From a virus: a stretch of 25,671 bases of DNA. This document shows, in pieces, positions 737 through 14,097 of the stretch; position 1 is the stretch's first letter; each line of letters opens with the position of its first letter. The notes beneath the pieces are model-generated. The model did not search any database, was not told the origin of the DNA, and was given only the letters and a program-made list of their open reading frames with translations. A program made the position numbers and the translations under genes. Location: positions 1 through 25,671 of the IMG/VR virus record IMGVR_UViG_3300005915_000102; one strand, 5' to 3'.

Positions 737-1132
737 ATGCAAATAACAAAAGAATTTACAATCGACTTAGCGCATAGGCTTACTAACCACCCTAGCAAGT
801 GTATAAATGTTCACTGACACACTTATAGAATACAAGTATCTGTTAGGGGAGATATAAAAGAAAATTGAATGGTGATGGATTTTGGAGAGTTCAAAAAAAT
901 TAAATCTCGATGTGATGAAAACTGGGACCATTCATATTTGTATAAAGTAGGAGATGAAGTTTGAGAATTTTTAAAAGAAAAATGATATAGGGTTTTTAGT
1001 TTTGGTGTAGAACCTACTGCAGAAAATATGGTAATATTTCTAAAACAAATTGTAGCAATAGAATTTGATTTATTAGAAGAAGATGTGACTATAAGGATGT
1101 ATGAAACACCTACAAGCTATGCACAAGCATAG
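737..1132 (+). CDS. queD: QueD: 6-carboxy-5,6,7,8-tetrahydropterin synthase
   Basis: 131 aa, the normal size for QueD. The family converts 7,8-dihydroneopterin triphosphate (the FolE product) to 6-carboxytetrahydropterin, the second step to preQ0. Visible residues: His13 and the C-x3-H-G-H motif (Cys22 nucleophile; His26 and His28 zinc ligands with His13), the DHS motif in the middle, PTAEN, and a late glutamate in an ETPT motif. Gly27 of HGH is encoded by TGA, direct support for TGA = Gly. It is the first gene of the cassette and is followed 25 bases later by folE. The related eukaryotic-type PTP synthase is less likely because the Cys spacing is of the QueD type and the neighbours are queE and queC. 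Confidence 0.93.
1059..1083 (+). repeat. 25-base exact direct repeat, copy 1 (in queD)
   Basis: These 25 bases recur exactly at 8411-8435, about 7.35 kb away in an unrelated gene. Both copies are read in the same frame and encode the peptide EFDLLEE close to the C-terminus of their protein. See copy 2 and the corresponding finding. Confidence 0.6.
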
Positions 1133-1157: not shown

Positions 1158-1751
1158 ATGTACCCAATGAGAGAAAACAATTTAACTGATATTGAAAAGA
1201 TAGAAGCTATATCACTACTATTCAGCGAGATTATGACAATCTTAGGATTAGATTTGGAAGATGATAGTTTAAAAAAAACACCATACAGAGTAGCAAAGAT
1301 GTATGTAAGAGAAATTTTCAAAGGATTGAATAAAGATAACTACCCTAGAATATCAGCATTTGAGAACAAATATAACTATAATCAGATGCTAATAGTAAAA
1401 AATATAAAAGTGATGAGTGCTTGCGAACATCATTTTGTACCATTCATAGGAGAGGCATTTGTTGCATATATACCTAATAACAAAGTTATATGATTGTCAA
1501 AGATAAATAGAATAGTAGATTTCTATTCTAGGAAACCACAAGTACAAGAAAGATTGACAGAAGAAATCCACGCAGATTTAGTAGAGAAGTTAGGGACAGA
1601 AGATGTAGCGATATTAATTAGAGCAAAACATTATTGCGTTGTTATGAGATGAGTAGAAGATATTAATTCAAGTACAACCACTAGCAAGATGTGATGAAAA
1701 TTTATGGACAGCAGCGATGTAAGAAAAGAATTTTTAGAACTTATAAAATAG
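1158..1751 (+). CDS. folE: FolE: GTP cyclohydrolase I
   Basis: 197 aa, usual length for type I FolE. It converts GTP to 7,8-dihydroneopterin triphosphate, the entry step to preQ0 (and folate). The zinc ligands are visible as Cys89, His92 (CEHHF motif) and Cys160 (HYC motif); the substrate-binding GLSK motif at 112-115 and the SSTTTSKM segment near the C-terminus are typical. Gly112 is a TGA codon, as are several others. The ATG at 1158 is chosen because the preceding in-frame ATG at 1101 overlaps queD and adds 19 non-conserved residues. The next gene begins 3 bases after the stop. In this setting it most likely supplies QueD; folate synthesis is a less likely role. Confidence 0.95.
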
Positions 1752-1754
1752 AAT

Positions 1755-2192
1755 ATGTACATAACCCAAAAACAATTTCAAAGAGATGTTTTTTTGTTAG
1801 CAGATATAATAAAATCTATGGGAGTGGAATATGATTGAATAATATGCGTCACTTGATGAGGATTACACTTAACATATTATTTAAGCAAACTTCTTGGTAT
1901 AAAGAATATACAAAACATTAATGTAAGTTCTTATGAATGAAAAAAAAATAAAAGAATAAAGAATTATACAGAATGAATTATGATAAATTGTCGTTTCAAT
2001 AAATATTTAGTTGTAGATGATTTAGTGGACACCTGAAAAACAATAAGGTATATACGCAAAAAGTTTTGAACAAACACAGATGTAGCAACACTATACCATA
2101 AGAATAAGTGTCCTAAACCCGCTTACTATGTGAAGGAAATTTCACCTAAGGAACGAATAACATTTTACTATGAGCATAATATAGATGAGTAA
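1755..2192 (+). CDS. Purine-type phosphoribosyltransferase (Gpt/Hpt-like)
   Basis: 145 aa, similar to small type I PRTases. The PRPP-binding loop is clear: residues 85-96 contain two hydrophobic residues, then VVDDLVDTGKT, the classic DD-x-x-DTG pattern. An upstream glycine-rich TGGG at 33-36 corresponds to the pyrophosphate-binding loop. Such enzymes join a base to PRPP. Specificity cannot be read from the sequence; xanthine/guanine or hypoxanthine is the usual guess. It sits inside the preQ0 operon between folE and queE, and its stop overlaps the queE start by 8 bases, so its expression is coupled to the pathway. A role in feeding GTP to FolE, or in making a deazaguanine nucleotide, is inference. 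Confidence 0.82.
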
Positions 2193-2844
2193 AAAAATAC
2201 CTGTAAGCGAGATATTTATTGCGTTGCAATGAGAGTGACCAAATATTTGAAAACCTACAATATTTATAAGGTTCTTTGGTTGCAATAAGAATTGTACTTG
2301 GTGTGATAGTAAATATTCTACTGCTGGTAAAGATTATAAATTGATGAGTATAGAGGAAATAGTAGAGGAGATAATAGATTTGGATTCTTATAGTGTGACT
2401 TTCACTTGATGAGAGCCTACATTATTTTGTGAGGAGATGGATATGATTATGGAATCTTTATTGAGTTATGAATATTTTTTGAATTACAGTTTAGAAACTA
2501 ATGGTAGCAATAGTGTAAAAAATATGGAACATAGTTTCCATAATATATCAGTAAGTCCAAAATTAATTAATAGTGGAAATTCTCCATACGAATTAAAGAT
2601 ATTGCCTACAGAAAATTGTGAGGCCATATATAAGTTTGTGGTCGATACGGAGAAAGATTTTAAAGAGGTACAAAAATATTGTGCTGAATATGATATACTT
2701 TGCGAAGATGTATATATAATGCCACAAGGGACAACAATGGAGAGTCAATTGAGACCAGAGTTTGTGCAATTGTGCTTAATGTTTTGATACACTTTAAATT
2801 TAAGGCAGCATATTTTACTTCATAATGATAAAAGATGAGTGTAA
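2185..2844 (+). CDS. queE: QueE: 7-carboxy-7-deazaguanine synthase (radical SAM)
   Basis: 219 aa, normal for QueE. This enzyme rearranges 6-carboxytetrahydropterin to 7-carboxy-7-deazaguanine using SAM and a 4Fe-4S cluster. The cluster motif C-x3-C-x2-C is at Cys33, Cys37, Cys40, followed by Asp41; before it stand the family motifs LQGEGPN (14-20) and FIRFFGC. FTGGEPT follows in the middle of the protein. Gly16, Gly18, Gly22 and both glycines of GGEP are TGA codons, while Trp39 is TGG; together this is the clearest proof in the window that TGA means Gly and not Trp or stop. The start overlaps the previous gene by 8 bases and the end overlaps queC by 10. Confidence 0.95.
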
Positions 2845-3413
2845 AAAAGAAAGTAGTATTGTTGTTGTCTTGAGGAATAGATAGTACAACTTTGCTATAT
2901 GAATATTATAAAAATTATGATATTACAGGATTGTTTATTGATTATGGGCAAACAAATCATAAAGAGATAGAGAGTGTAGAATATCATTGTGAGAAATTAG
3001 GTATAGAATATTATGTACACAAAATAGATATGGGTTCATTAGGTTGCGAGAGTAGTTTGGTGTGAGGGGTTATAGATTCACCGACAGTACACAATAGGAA
3101 TATGATGTTTATAGCGGCAGCATTAGCTTTTGCTAGGAACAATAACAAAGATATAGTTATGATATGAAGCCACCTAGGCTCTCCAGATACAGACAATTCA
3201 GTAGAATTTATAGGACGAATGGATTTGGTAGGTAAAATAAGTGTATGAATAGAAGTACAAGCACCATATATATACATAACAAAGAATGAGATTATACGCA
3301 AGGCACAAAAATTATTAGATTTAAATGAAACTCGAAGTTGTTATGAGTGATGAGCGGGACCTTGCGGTAAATGTAAAGCCTGCAAAGCAAGACTTTTAGC
3401 CTTAAAAGAATAG
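2835..3413 (+). CDS. queC: QueC: 7-cyano-7-deazaguanine (preQ0) synthase
   Basis: 192 aa, slightly short against the usual 220-230 residues. QueC uses ATP and ammonia to turn 7-carboxy-7-deazaguanine into preQ0. The ATP-pyrophosphatase P-loop SGGIDST is at residues 12-18 (Gly13 is TGA), the NRNMMF motif lies near residue 90, and the C-terminus has the four-cysteine zinc site (SC...PCGKCKACK). The start overlaps the end of queE by 10 bases, and the stop TAG is followed at once by the ATG of the transglycosylase gene. With FolE, QueD and QueE this completes the GTP-to-preQ0 route in one operon. Confidence 0.95.
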
Positions 3414-4190
3414 ATGTTATTATATTATAGTTGAGTAAAACAATTCAAAGATAAATTGGATTTCAAGAATATAGATAATATCTTGATGGCATTCCCTGAA
3501 CTGAATAAAAAGAAAGATAAAGATTTTTGGACTGATAAGAGAGTGTTTTTAGATAGTGGTGGGTTCTCCATAAGGAACAGTTGAATGGAATTAGATGTAA
3601 AAGATTATGCGGAATTTATCAAACAGTATGGAAGCAACTTCGAGGTATGTGCTAATATGGATACCTCAGATACTAAAGAAACATTAGAGAACCAAAAATA
3701 TCTTGAAGAAGAAACAGGACAATTCATTCTCCCAGTATTCCACCGATGAGAATTAAAGGAATGAAACAAACAACTTATGGAAGATTATTGTGAGAAATAT
3801 GATTATGTAGCGATATGAGGAATGGCGAGTGTGAAGATGAGCAAACCACAAAAGAAATACTATTTGGATTTCTGTTTCCATACAGCTATGAAACATAAAA
3901 CTAAGCTACATTGATTTGGAATAACTAGTATGCACGAACTAAAGAGATACCCATTCTATAGTGTAGATAGCACGACTTGGTTGTCGGCCAGAAGATACAA
4001 TTGCACATTTAAGTTTAGTAATGGTAAGCTATGGGCGTATGGGGTGCATAAGATGAAGAAACTTTGAATAGCGTTTGCTGAACTTACTAACGAACAAAAG
4101 ATGCAGAGAAGTTTGAATGAATGGTATAAGTTCGAGAAATATATAGATGAACTACATAAAGTAAAAGGTTTGAATTATTGGGAGAAGTAA
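3414..4190 (+). CDS. TGT-superfamily transglycosylase, phage DpdA-like (DNA base exchange)
   Basis: 258 aa, much shorter than bacterial tRNA-guanine transglycosylase (about 375). Seen: FLDSGGF at 45-51, matching the DSGGF active-site motif; FHRGE at 109-113; YVAIGGM at 131-137, matching the substrate-binding GGL/GGM loop; LHGFG at 165-169; and SVDSTTW at 183-189, where Asp185 fits the nucleophile aspartate of the family's GVDxFD motif. Known: phage and bacterial DpdA proteins are TGT relatives that exchange guanine in DNA for preQ0 or derivatives. Inferred: this protein acts on phage DNA because it directly follows a complete preQ0 pathway in a virus and lacks the size of a tRNA enzyme. A tRNA substrate cannot be excluded. 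Confidence 0.83.
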
Positions 4191-4208: not shown

Positions 4209-5051
4209 ATGATGTGAGAGATAAAAAAGTTTGGTAGTTTATATAATACTGTATGATGAGGGGAATGAGATAAATGTAAATACCCTACAAGGCTTGATAC
4301 TTATTGACAGGGGTGTGGGCATAATTGTTCTTATTGTTATGCTAGAGCGTTATTAGAATTTAGATGACTACGACACCCAAACAATCCAAAGTTCATTGAT
4401 TTGAAGACAGCATATAAAACCATAGCGAGAATACCTAAAGACCAAACTACTAGATTATGAGGTATGACAGATTGTTTCCAGCCAGTAGAGAGAGTGCATA
4501 AAATAACCTACAATGTATTGAAAGCATTTAACCATTATAGGAAACACTATCTGATAGTCACTAAAAGCGATTTACTAGCAACGGATGAATATTTAGAGGT
4601 ATTAGATAAAGAGTTGGCACATATACAGATAACAATAACTGGAACAGACGACAAACTAGTATCAACATATGAGAAAGCGACTTTAGTATCTAATAGGATA
4701 AAGGCAATAGAAAAACTATACAAATTATGATATGATGTGCAGATAAGATTGTCCCCATATATAATACCGTATGTAGATATAGATATAATAAATAACATAA
4801 AGTGTGATAAGATAATAGTGGAGTTCCTTAGAATAAATCATTGGATTAAAAAATGGTTTGATATAGATTATAGCGACTACACACTAAAGGAATGAGGCTA
4901 CAATCATCTACCTTTAGAGAAAAAGAAAGAATATCTATCGAGAATAAAGATAAAGGAGATAAGTGTGTGTGAGGATGTGCAAGAGCATTACGATTACTGG
5001 AGAGAGAATGTAAACCACAACAAAGAGGATTGTTGCAACCTAAAGTTTTAA
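4209..5051 (+). CDS. Radical SAM protein, spore-photoproduct-lyase-like family
   Basis: 280 aa. The N-terminal third has DTYGQGCGHNCSYCYAR-type sequence with the C-x3-C-x2-C cluster at Cys36, Cys40 and Cys43; Gly33 is TGA. The following segment (MTDCFQPVE, then alternating strands and helices ending with a RLSP motif) fits a radical SAM barrel of the SplB-like group. Substrate is unknown. Position is telling: 18 bases after the DpdA-like gene and 18 before the ParB-like gene. A role in tailoring the inserted deazaguanine base, or in DNA repair, is inference. The start could be either of two adjacent ATG codons (4209 or 4212). Confidence 0.85.
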
Positions 5052-5069
5052 ATCTTTAATTATATAATA

Positions 5070-5606
5070 ATGGACATTAAACAAATTGCGATAGAGAAAC
5101 TTATACCCTACGAAAAGAACAACAAAGAACACGACGAGATACAGATAACTAGGATAGCGAACAGTATCAAAGAGTTTGGCTTCATACAGCCATTAGTAAT
5201 AGATAAAAACAATGTAGTGGTTATAGGACATTGAAGATTAGATGCAGCGAAAGAGTTAGGGTTGGAAACAGTACCTGCGATTATGGCAGAAAATCTTGAC
5301 GAAGAACAAATAAAGAAGCTAAGAATACTAGATAACAAACTTAATGAGAGTGATTGGCATTTAGAAAACCTCAAGATAGAGTTAGATGATTTAGGACAAT
5401 TAGATATAGGGGATTTGAATATAGATATAAAAGATATGTTCCCAGAGTTTGACGCACCTGAATTTAATCCTGATGAGTATGATGAGGAAGAAGAAAATAA
5501 AACTAAGATGGTTGCTTGTACTGTATGGGCAAAAGATTTAGATGAGGCAGGAGAAATTAAAGAGGCAATAGAGGAAATAGGGTACGAATGTGTAGTGAAA
5601 GGATAA
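5070..5606 (+). CDS. ParB/sulfiredoxin-fold domain protein
   Basis: 178 aa. The N-terminal half is a ParB-like nuclease domain: IPYEKNN near residue 12, a FGFIQPLVID segment, then VVVIGHGRLDAAKELG followed by VPAI, the phosphate-binding GHxR box (its Gly in GR is TGA). The C-terminal half is very acidic and ends in a small alpha/beta segment. Phages often carry such single-domain ParB-like genes beside methyltransferases or terminases. In the bacterial 7-deazaguanine (dpd) islands, one component, DpdB, is described as ParB-related, so a helper role for the transglycosylase is possible. A packaging or partition role is the main alternative. Confidence 0.8.
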
Positions 5607-5627: not shown

Positions 5628-6128
5628 ATGGCAACAAAGAGATATGATTACAATGCTTTAAAGTTAGAGTTCTTTCAATCAGATTTTGATGAGATTTCAG
5701 TATTTTTTAAGTCGGTTTATAGTAAATGGACTGGAACTATTGCGAAAGCGACTACTGGTTGGGCTAAAGATAAAAACAATTGGATGAAAAAAGTAACGGA
5801 AAGGGCTATTACTAATGCAGAAAAGAGGGCAGCGAAATCATTGGAGATACCGCTTACTACCTTGAAATTGTGAAAAAAGAATGCGGTTGGTATATTAATG
5901 CAAAGTTTAAATGGCCTTGTAGACAAGAAAGGTAATGTGACGGAAGATGTGAATATACAAGATGTGTGCAGGGTATTAGATAAAATCAAAACTGAATTGA
6001 AAGAACCTACAAACATTACTAGGCAATTCAATACAGAAATTCGTGACGATAGTTTGACAGAAGAAGAACAAGAACTAATAGAAAAAATTGAGGAAGATGA
6101 GAAGAAAAAGAAAAAGAAAAAGAAGTAG
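5628..6128 (+). CDS. Candidate terminase small subunit
   Basis: 166 aa, one in-frame TGA (5871-5873), ending with an uninterrupted run of eight lysines before TAG. The first 90 residues are largely helical and basic, with features suited to DNA binding; the middle is acidic. I cannot match a TerS family directly. The assignment rests on position, immediately upstream of the large terminase (with the tRNA-like element between them), size, and the predicted helical DNA-binding character. It could instead be another DNA-binding phage protein. Confidence 0.5.
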
Positions 6129-6297: not shown

Positions 6298-7764
6298 ATG
6301 GCTAATGATTTATGAACACAGGCAATGAAATGAAGTCCAGCTCTAAGGAAAACATACCTTAGCAATCGTTTTTATAAATATAGTTTATTTTATTTCCCTG
6401 AATATTTTATTTTTGATACTCCACAATTTATAGAGGATTATTGTGAGGCGTTGGAACAATGAAAGAATGTTTACTTTGAGGGATTTAGATGATGTGCTAA
6501 AACAACTATCGCACAAGTATATGTGAATAAATGTATAACTTATAGGACAAGGAGAAACATAATGCGGTACTCACAAACAATAGATAATGCAGAGGAGAAT
6601 TTGAGTTATATAGCGAATAGTTTAATATGATGAGATGATACAGAAGTTAGCAGGTTAGTAAAGGATTTTGGGCAGTTATATTATGATGAGTTCTCTTGAA
6701 AGTATTGAGAAAAGAAAATGAAAAGAACTAATAAGTTTGTGACGGAGAACGATATAAATGTTAGAGCAATGTCACTAGGTACAAGTCCTAGGGGAAAGAA
6801 TTATACAGCTAAGGACGGTAAACATAGACCCGATTTACTGGTGTTCGATGATGTAGATACTTTAGATAGTGTGTCGAGTAAAAAGAAAATAGATAAAAAT
6901 TTTAACTTTATGCTTCAAGAGGTATTGTGAGGAACTACTGGTGCGTGTCAGATGATATTTCTAGGGAACACTATATATGAAGACGGTATAGTGCCTAGAT
7001 TTAAAGAACATATAAAGAACGATTCCAGTCGAGTAATAATAAAACAGTCGATATATAAAAAAAAGAAAATAGTTTGGGACAGGTTTGTTGAAACAGATAA
7101 ACAGATGAACAAATTAAACAAAGGCATTAGAGAAAGTAATAGGAAATATACTTCATTAGAAACAGAGAGAAGAAGATTAGGGCAAATATCATTCGACCAG
7201 AACTACAATCTTGTACCTTATATTCAATGACAACAGATAATATCTAGAGATATGATTAAGTATTTGAAATGTAGTGACTTCGGGTTTGATTATATACAAA
7301 TAGGAGTTGACCCTGCGATAAGCGAAAAGACTGGTAGTGACAGGTTTGCGATATGCGTGACTTGATTTGATTGAGATAAAAGATATATATTAGAGAGTGT
7401 GAAGTTGATAGGTAAAGAAAAAAATATCAAGAGAGCGAGTAGGGTTGTATTAGGTCTCTATAAAAAATGGTGAGCGAATAGAGTAGTGGTCGAAACAACC
7501 GCATACCAAGCGGTATTAAAAACTATCTTTCAAGATATGGGTATGGCGGTTAAAGCTATATCGCCACATAGAGATAAAGTGACTAGAGTTATGGAGTATC
7601 AATGAATGTTTGAAGACGGAAAAGTTATATTCAATACAACAGGTACACAAGATTTAGTTGATGAATTATTAGTGTTCCCTTGATGAGATTTTGATGACCA
7701 AGTGGATGGTATGGTTTATAGCCTCTATGGAGAGAGAAATAAGTTCTTTATATCAGCTTTATAG
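6298..7764 (+). CDS. terL: Terminase large subunit (packaging ATPase and nuclease)
   Basis: 488 aa, typical TerL length. The ATPase part has Walker A GFRGCAKTT (62-70), with Gly65 as TGA, and Walker B LLVFDD (180-185). The C-terminal RNase H-like nuclease shows acidic residues in order: GVDPA (Asp338), VVVET (Glu399) and DDQVD (466-470). It powers DNA translocation into the prohead and cuts concatemers. The ATG at 6298 lies 28 bases after the tRNA-like element, following an AT-rich leader. The coding frame is broken by many TGA codons, all at plausible glycine positions. The downstream gene starts 1 base after the stop. Confidence 0.93.
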
Positions 7765-10680: not shown

Positions 10681-12276
10681 ATGAAATCTAAGCTAATCAA
10701 ACAAAAGAATCACTTTCAAATTATTTGTGAAAAGAAAGCCATTAAAGAAACCATTAACGAGGCGGGAGATGTGACTGGTATAGAAATTGAATGATTTGCT
10801 TCTACTAAAGACAAGGACAGAGTAAATGATATAGTAGAACCAAAAGCATTTGCGGAAGCATTAGAGCTTTATATGACAAACCCTATTATGTTATTGCAAC
10901 ATAAAGCTGATAAACCTATCGGGACTGTTGTTGAAGCTACCATAAAATCTAATGGGCTTTATGTGAAAGCAAACATTACTGAAGACATTGACTGAATATT
11001 CTCTAAACTAAAAAATGGAGTAGTTAGAGCCTTTAGTATTGGGTACAGAGTTAGAGATTGGGAAGAATTGGAAGTAAAAGACGAGAACGATAATGTGACT
11101 GGCTACGAAGTAATCATAAAGAGTTTGGAATTGTATGAGATTAGTTTAGTTTCTATCCCTGCAAATCCTTATGCACTTTTGAAATCAGTTGATAGTTTGT
11201 TTGAACTACAAACCAAAGATGAAGCGGATGCAACAACAGAAGATAAAGAAGAAATTGTTGCAGATGAACCAAGTGACACAGTAGAAGAAAAACCTGCTGT
11301 AGAGACAGATGATGAACAATGAGAAGCGGAAACTATTGAGGCAAAAGAGGAAGTTGAGGAAACTGAAACTGTTGAAACAGAGGAAACAGAAACCGAAACA
11401 GAGGAAGTTGAAGAAGAAAAAGAAGAAAAAGAAGAAAAAATTGAGGAAGATGATAGTGAGGAAGCCAAAGAACTTGAAACAGAAGAGAAAAGAAATGGTG
11501 ATGGGCAATGACCTGCGGGTAATTGACCTTGAACTTGAAGAGGTACTTGAACTTGTTTGAAAGGTGAGGAATGAACTGTAAAAGATATTGTTAAAGATGT
11601 TGTTGAAGATGCACAAGAGGAAGAAGAGGAAGAAACTCTTGGAGATAAGCTTGAATGAGCGAATGAAGAAATAAACCCTACGGAAGAAGAAGAAAAAGAA
11701 ATTGAAGAAGAAGAAAAAGAAGAAAAAGAAGAAAAAGATAATGAAGTTATAGAACAAGAAGCTGTTGAAGCTGAAAAAAAAGAAGAAACAAAGGAAGATG
11801 TAGTGCCTGTTGAGGAGACAGAAGAAAAGGAAGAAGAAGAAAAAGAAGATGAAGTTATTGAAACTGCTGAAAATGCAGATGAAAATAAAGAGCCAGAAGT
11901 AGTTGAGGAATGACAAGAATCTGAAAACGCAGACGAAACTGTTGCGGATGAGGTTGAAACAGACCCTGTTGAAGAAGTCAAGGACTTAGAGAAAATGGCT
12001 ATCAAGAACATTGAGGGCTTAGTTAAAACTGGGAACGAAGATGTTATGAAAGAAGTCAAAAATCTTTTTGAAAAGAAAGATGAGGTTATTGAGGGGCTAT
12101 CTAAGAAATTAGAAAACTCCATAGAGATAATCAAAGGGTTAGTGGATTATCTTGAAACAATAGATAAGCAGCTAGCGAATACGATTGTAAAATCGTGAGT
12201 ACCATTTGAGAAAATTCCTGCAAAACGCAAGAGTGCATATGGTAAAGTAGTAGACAAATGTAAGACAATCCTTTAA
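10681..12276 (+). CDS. HK97-type prohead protease fused to acidic scaffold-like region
   Basis: 531 aa, against about 200 for a plain prohead protease. Residues 1-175 hold the protease: GFASTKDKDR followed by DIVEPKAF, catalytic His74 in LLQHKA, Ser119 in FSIGY, and LYEISLVSIPANP. From about residue 180 to 440 the chain is nearly all Glu, Lys, Thr and Val, broken by a Gly-rich patch near 275-300 whose glycines are mostly TGA. The last 95 residues are predicted coiled coil. The protease matures the capsid; the acidic and coiled part probably acts as the internal scaffold, since no separate scaffold gene is present. One continuous frame to TAA supports a real fusion. Confidence 0.88.
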
Positions 12277-13545: not shown

Positions 13546-14097
13546 ATGGAAACACGAAAAGATGTTGTTTGATATGAATGATTGTATGAAGTGTCAGACA
13601 AAGGGAACATAAAAAGCTTGAATTACAATCACACTAAAAAACAAAAATTATTAAAACAAAGAAAGAAAAAGGACTGATATTTATGAGTGGTATTATTTAA
13701 AGATTATGAATATAAAAATTTATTAGTTCATAGATTGATTGGATTAGCGTTTATAACTAATCTAGAGAATAAGCCACAAATAAATCATATCAATTCTATA
13801 AGGGATGATAATAGAGTAGAAAATCTTGAGTGGTGTACAGCGTTAGAAAATCAACAACACTCTTGGAATACTACTGAAAGGAATGTGAGTAGACCTCGAT
13901 TATGAAAGTTTGGGAAACTACATCACCATTCTAAGAAGATAAATCAATATACAATGAAATGGGTATTTATTAAGACACGAGATAGTCAGGCAGAAATACA
14001 AAGAGAATTATGAATCGGTCAGTGAAATATATCAAGTTGTTGTGCATGAAAATTAAAAACTACTTGATGATATATATGGACACTTTTTAAATCTTAA
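13546..14097 (+). CDS. HNH homing endonuclease with NUMOD4 domain
   Basis: 183 aa. Residues 5-22 read [18 protein letters not shown], a NUMOD4 DNA-binding motif. The HNH core follows: [10 protein letters not shown] (61-70), [11 protein letters not shown] (79-89) and VENLEWCT (91-98), giving His81 and Asn93 as likely active-site residues. The C-terminal part has the TGGYIW ending of NUMOD-type recognition segments. Such free-standing endonucleases spread as mobile genes in phage head regions. It is inserted between the capsid gene and the neck genes and is not expected to be essential for virion assembly. Glycines are TGA in this gene too, so it has adapted to, or came from, a code-25 genome. 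Confidence 0.88.

Follow-up and report, generated by a model that had tools for sequence, protein, structure and literature searches.

A radical SAM gene and a ParB-like gene beside a deazaguanine cassette in the pre-terminase slot of a code-25 phage

A radical SAM gene whose product resembles spore photoproduct lyase (SPL) and a gene for a ParB_N-domain protein were found side by side in a linear virus record of 25,671 bases (IMGVR_UViG_3300005915_000102), analysed over its full length and called here the window, where they lie between a deazaguanine cassette and the terminase genes. On balance, we favor the explanation that they form a portable pair in a swappable pre-terminase slot for DNA modification, and that this pair probably acts on DNA without involvement of deazaguanine. 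This reading is preferred because of partner swaps within the window's radical SAM clade, relatives found through the small terminase (TerS), the presence of a ParB belonging to the radical SAM itself, the association with modification enzymes, the SPL fold, and the adjacency of ParB and DpdA. A radical SAM gene together with ParB and DpdA was not described in the literature searched, which included some but not all of the central deazaguanine papers.

Genetic code and gene order of the window

Hardly any long frames were present on the plus strand under table 11, and reading through TGA opened frames of up to 773 codons. Translation with code 25 gave 147 TGA codons across 19 genes. Glycine was required at the TGA positions of the QueC motif LLSGGIDSTT, the QueE motif LQGEGP and one FolE motif, indicating that TGA encodes glycine (code 25) and not tryptophan. 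The glycine motifs and the frame lengths ruled out both TGA as tryptophan (code 4) and TAG as glutamine (code 15). The window is part of a tailed phage whose host, judging from the code, is of the Gracilibacteria/Absconditabacteria type. An altered code was not mentioned in the original prediction, which concerned positions 4209-5606; standard annotation breaks up nearly every gene of the window.

The genes from queD to that for the large terminase lie on the plus strand. The cassette starts with queD (6-carboxytetrahydropterin synthase, 737..1132; PTPS PF01242, 1.4e-27; TIGR03367 above cutoff) and folE (GTP cyclohydrolase I, 1161..1751; PF01227, 2e-63; NF006824 above cutoff), followed by a purine phosphoribosyltransferase-like gene (1755..2192; PF00156, 6e-9; NF006613, 8e-20, below cutoff), queE (7-carboxy-7-deazaguanine synthase, 2185..2844; phrog_2076, 5e-45) and queC (preQ0 synthase, 2835..3413; PF06508, 6e-33). 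The third of these genes, xanthine-phosphoribosyltransferase-like and placed between folE and queE, is outside the canonical preQ0 pathway. Next come the dpdA-like gene for a putative DNA guanine transglycosylase (3414..4190; phrog_887, 5e-46; alignment and AF2 model), the SPL-like radical SAM gene (280 aa, 4209..5051; PF04055, 5e-10; alignment and AF2 model) and the gene for the ParB_N-domain protein (178 aa, 5070..5606; PF02195, 8e-11, residues 3-89). In code 25 frames these three genes are consecutive, with gaps of 18 bases each, just as originally predicted. The terminase genes follow: a small-terminase-like gene 21 bases after the ParB-like gene (5628..6128), which by tblastn is common to the code-25 relatives at 35-46% identity and precedes that for the large terminase (TerL, 6298..7764; phrog_38, 8e-56). 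Further downstream, a prohead-protease-like gene (10681-12276) encodes a very long, Glu-rich acidic tail, and a NUMOD4-HNH homing-type endonuclease gene (13546-14097) stands directly after the major capsid gene.

Family searches recovered the complete preQ0 pathway (FolE, QueD, QueE and QueC). In the dpdA product, D47-S48-G49, H166 and D185 were conserved in the alignment, and the best PDB folds for its AF2 model (pLDDT 90) were those of TGT (E 6e-5). The NCBIfam DpdA model scored only 21 bits against a cutoff of 200; phage DpdAs have been reported to separate from bacterial DpdAs (PMC6884629). A scan with the window DpdA itself matched solely a near-identical contig. From its sequence and model, the product is taken to be a TGT-fold protein with the DpdA-conserved His, for which base insertion into DNA is predicted. 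The same combination of FolE, QueD, QueE and QueC with a DpdA carrying the conserved His is known from phages 9g and CAjan, of the group without an amidotransferase (PMC6884629), and since no amidotransferase accompanies the cassette, dPreQ0 or dADG is the predicted product. The window differs from these systems in its code 25, in the pre-terminase position and in having ParB and radical SAM genes alongside, whereas CAjan and Vibrio 83AMN carry the DpdA gene in their replication region and lack ParB_N.

The radical SAM and ParB-like proteins

The radical SAM motif CxxxCxxC corresponds to C36, C40 and C43. Spore photoproduct lyase provided the best PDB folds for the AF2 model (pLDDT 88; 4fhf and 4k9r by Foldseek, 4fhf at E 2e-7), with SuiB and anSME ranking lower. 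By sequence, the best family was NCBIfam PA0069 (3e-23), with 82 bits against a cutoff of 360, followed by TIGR04470, the radical SAM mobile pair protein B (6e-16, 59 bits against 410), and TIGR03886 (17 bits against 437.55), while the Pfam search gave no match to the SPL family PF20903 at E 0.01. These scores, far under the PA0069, TIGR04470 and SPL-family cutoffs, suggest a separate radical SAM subfamily. It shares with SplB (PF20903) the partial barrel, the CxxxCxxC motif and the top fold match, but the window protein is shorter (280 residues against about 340), about 15% identical, and has the extra conserved cysteines C23, C254, C275 and C276.

These four cysteines and C89 were nearly invariant in the subfamily. 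Relatives were collected partly by the peptide pattern GGMTDCFQ, which is carried by all the IMG/VR loci found (the scan of bacterial genomes used a second pattern too), so that the conservation of C89 is partly imposed by the search and carries no evidence within the IMG/VR set. The hydrogen-donor Cys140 of SPL aligned in a weak profile alignment to Gly85, with the conserved Cys89 four residues on; an exact equivalence of C89 and Cys140 was unsupported by this alignment.

In the ParB-like protein of the window only the ParB_N domain was detected, and no HTH or partition region. Its match to TIGR00180 (45.5 bits, residues 5-99 only) missed the partition ParB cutoff of 58.45, and PADLOC returned an MTase_II match only. 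The protein grouped with the ParB copies adjacent to radical SAM genes (94/92, below the program's star threshold).

The proposal that ParB helps DpdA engage DNA held in part. The adjacency is real and recurrent: among 101 DpdA loci of gut/rumen phages, 98 had ParB at most 1.5 kb upstream, and a 4-base overlap of the ATGA type joined the two genes in 42/115 DpdA loci; in the window, the radical SAM gene sits between them. ParB also accompanies methylases and glycosyltransferases, however, and the DpdA of phage 9g needs no ParB to insert preQ0 into E. coli plasmids (PMC6884629), which together with the ParB_N-free CAjan indicates that ParB would be at most an accessory to DpdA. Most ParBs of the ParB-selected loci (n = 80) were of 370-520 residues, the size of a ParB-methylase fusion, and were encoded just upstream of terminase. 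ParB_N proteins in that position were commonly of methylase-fusion size, or beside TAGT (TET-associated glycosyltransferase), C5-methyltransferase (C5-MT) or radical SAM genes, and ParB_N by modifying enzymes has likewise been reported at CmoX loci (PMC12783734). Taken together, ParB is best regarded as an accessory that serves DNA-modifying enzymes in general.

The window resembles the Dpd islands (DpdA/DpdB/DpdC), in which DpdB has been described as a ParB-like ATPase (PMC12839542), in its TGT-like DpdA, the neighboring ParB-superfamily gene and the preQ0 pathway, but differs in that no DpdC or other Dpd genes were found and in being phage-borne and beside terminase, and radical SAM is no part of Dpd. 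Reading the window as a Dpd island was rejected, as no DpdC was found and the ParB gave no match among the PADLOC models other than MTase_II. A likeness in arrangement is offered by mycobacteriophages of the B cluster such as CRB2, in which, according to the excerpted text of PMC6392294, the ParB-like ORF1 stands directly beside the DpdA ORF2, the DpdB analogy was already proposed for this ParB and, unlike the window, no radical SAM appears.

In rumen and gut phages (L149-L284), an array of ParB, DpdA and YhhQ (Vut_1, preQ0-transporter-like) was observed, YhhQ being present in 118/136 DpdA loci; in an earlier study YhhQ showed no correlation with any phage group (PMC6884629). About 32 loci (within L205-L284) had a QueC-like gene by DpdA and YhhQ without QueD, QueE or FolE, which suggests precursor salvage or a QueC with another role.

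Partners of the radical SAM gene in phages and bacteria

At least 224 relatives of the radical SAM gene were found in IMG/VR. Identity within the subfamily was 54-80%, and DpdA was missing from most of its members. When 50 whole records were searched, DpdA was found in 12/50, QueC above cutoff in 4/50 and ParB in 29/50. Conversely, the radical SAM gene occurred in 14 of 136 DpdA loci, which were sampled independently of it by reverse scans, as compared with 8/79 terminase-control loci and 3/78 loci of the TAGT set. Thus, the claim that the gene is locked to the deazaguanine cassette was contradicted by the 38/50 records without DpdA, the 46/50 without above-cutoff QueC and the small share of DpdA loci containing it; the refuting pattern named in the original prediction, homologues mostly in phages with no deazaguanine genes and beside terminase only, was largely observed, and on the ParB side 79/80 ParB-selected loci were without DpdA. 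The exact order of TGT, radical SAM and ParB was observed solely in the window and its near-identical contig (L002). In the nearest relatives (L003-L006) the order was DpdA, ParB and radical SAM, with preQ0 genes upstream wherever the contig extends that far.

In the terminase control, an enrichment of the radical SAM gene with DpdA was not shown (2/8 vs 4/71, p = 0.11). Any modification enzyme was present in 5/8 loci with the radical SAM gene vs 12/71 without it (Fisher p = 0.010), an association that rests on eight radical SAM loci and on a terminase family picked out of radical SAM loci. Habitat is a confounder, since most loci seem to be of gut or rumen origin, judging from the organisms named in the bacterial-genome scan. 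Because the scans rely on peptides back-translated, it seems, with the standard code, relatives using code 25 are under-represented; numerous contigs are fragmentary, which makes an absence weak evidence for any single contig, and the neighbor-gene profiles were built from radical SAM loci and may miss distant versions.

The neighbors of 80 viral radical SAM loci, checked with Pfam, were ParB (n = 57), DpdA (n = 18), C5-MT-like genes (n = 16), TAGT (n = 11), MetK (n = 9) and a second radical SAM (n = 8). On the radical SAM tree of 144 rows, the DpdA context had to change 13 times, and well-supported branches made 9 of these changes unavoidable. The clade of the window (11 rows, 99% support) comprised four rows with DpdA, five with TAGT or a second radical SAM and two with a C5-methylase-like gene. 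One locus (L022) carried UDP-sugar enzymes, ParB, TAGT and radical SAM, and a whole-record search found both DpdA and QueC absent from it. Others had radical SAM, ParB and C5-MT (L082), ParB, C5-MT, radical SAM and ParB (L083), or ParB, a kinase-like ATPase, a second radical SAM, radical SAM and ParB (L444, L446). The radical SAM gene was accompanied by a ParB of its own, besides that of another enzyme, in L083, L444, L446 and L057.

Code-25 relatives, among them L534-L536, L538 and L539, were found through TerS, independently of the radical SAM gene. Three of them had ParB, C5-MT, radical SAM, ParB and TerS (L534-L536); in two others, whose TerL was 66% identical to that of the window, the slot held a GNAT gene without ParB or radical SAM (L538) or ParB alone (L539).

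The second radical SAM family, of about 420-440 residues and located in the same slot (L015, L016, L023, L044, L076, L444, L446), was accompanied by TAGT and MetK, or by ParB and the small kinase-like ATPase. In L034, L040, L041, L045, L056, L057, L073 and L083, C5-methylase-like proteins combined a GSPPC motif like that of CmoX with GMSVPP at motif X. Membership in CmoX was rejected for the C5-MT-like genes, because in spite of the SPPC their motif X is GMSVPP, with no Arg by inspection; they are possibly a further C5-transferase variant. One phage radical SAM gene (L061, 6001-6849) has an in-frame TAG, and the phage is likely TAG-recoded (code 15).

In the annotated phage collection, the subfamily was absent save for two gut contigs that lack annotation. 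Across 84,980 species genomes, 67 radical SAM loci were recovered, of which about 55 had no ParB nearby and most were without DpdA as well. Many of the bacterial loci lay amid type IV secretion genes, in Clostridial conjugative elements (e.g., L113-L123, L137). The latter indicate that the radical SAM gene belongs to mobile elements in general, and the loci without ParB, many of them among conjugation genes, that its partnership with ParB is non-obligatory.

Possible roles of the pair

The preferred explanation envisages a slot for DNA-modification genes immediately upstream of the phage terminase, which here would hold the preQ0 pathway (FolE, QueD, QueE, QueC) and the DpdA transglycosylase, predicted to insert either preQ0 or the ADG form of it into the DNA of the phage. 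Alongside the cassette, the SPL-like radical SAM enzyme and the ParB_N protein would constitute a separate portable unit. The former would most likely apply 5'-deoxyadenosyl radical chemistry to DNA, for a second modification or for repair and not for the tailoring of deazaguanine, and the latter would most likely be a generic nucleotide-dependent, DNA-engaging partner of radical SAM, DpdA, C5-methylase and TAGT enzymes. Going further, it is possible, if only tentatively proposed, that the subfamily with its own ParB_N represents a novel class of phage enzymes that modify DNA bases by radical chemistry, a unit swapped with DpdA, methylase and TAGT modules and, for example, replacing TET ahead of glycosyltransferases.

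The original prediction suggested that the radical SAM enzyme could convert the base inserted by DpdA, here preQ0, or repair modified DNA, and that ParB may help DpdA to engage DNA as in Dpd islands. The 18-base gaps in the window, the contiguous DpdA, ParB and radical SAM genes of L003-L006, the coupling of ParB with DpdA and the analogy to DpdB agree with tailoring of the inserted base, but we regard it as distinctly improbable, as the subfamily is found mostly apart from DpdA, next to different modifying enzymes and within conjugative elements, and is absent from most DpdA loci. The context data thus weigh against tailoring; repair chemistry is not separable by context.

Repair by an SPL-like enzyme that undoes UV damage or other lesions in the DNA of mobile elements, at a site that is merely a collecting spot for accessory genes, would account for the closest solved fold and for the presence of the gene across phages and conjugative elements irrespective of the type of modification. 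It is nevertheless rather unlikely, given that the SPL donor Cys140 was not conserved at the position to which it aligned, weakly, and that recurrent pairing with ParB, TAGT, MetK and methylase genes is unexpected for a stand-alone repair lyase. Spore photoproduct itself would be an unlikely substrate, since spore formation is not known from code-25 hosts. A target other than DNA, a protein or an RNA modified for instance during takeover or counter-defence, with ParB hitch-hiking upstream of terminase, seems improbable: the SPL fold match ranks ahead of the peptide modifiers, and, next to genes for DNA-modifying enzymes, the radical SAM gene is repeatedly accompanied by a ParB of its own. In favor of such a target are the many loci without any DNA-modifying neighbor (65/144 tree rows labelled none, conjugative elements included) and the five extra conserved cysteines, which might bind a second cluster like that of peptide-modifying radical SAM enzymes.

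Much new base chemistry, and much resistance to restriction, stems from the hypermodification of phage DNA. The survey separates two things that had been joined, in that ParB_N emerges as a partner common to many DNA-modifying enzymes and the radical SAM gene recurs in the same slot; should the enzyme encoded by the latter act on DNA, its radical chemistry would serve to write DNA bases and not to repair them. This is already open to testing, as the gene is also present in cultured gut Clostridia and Bacteroides. In the loci from cultured Clostridia (L113-L123, L137), the subfamily gene was located between VirB4-like and DUF5697/DUF6100 genes.
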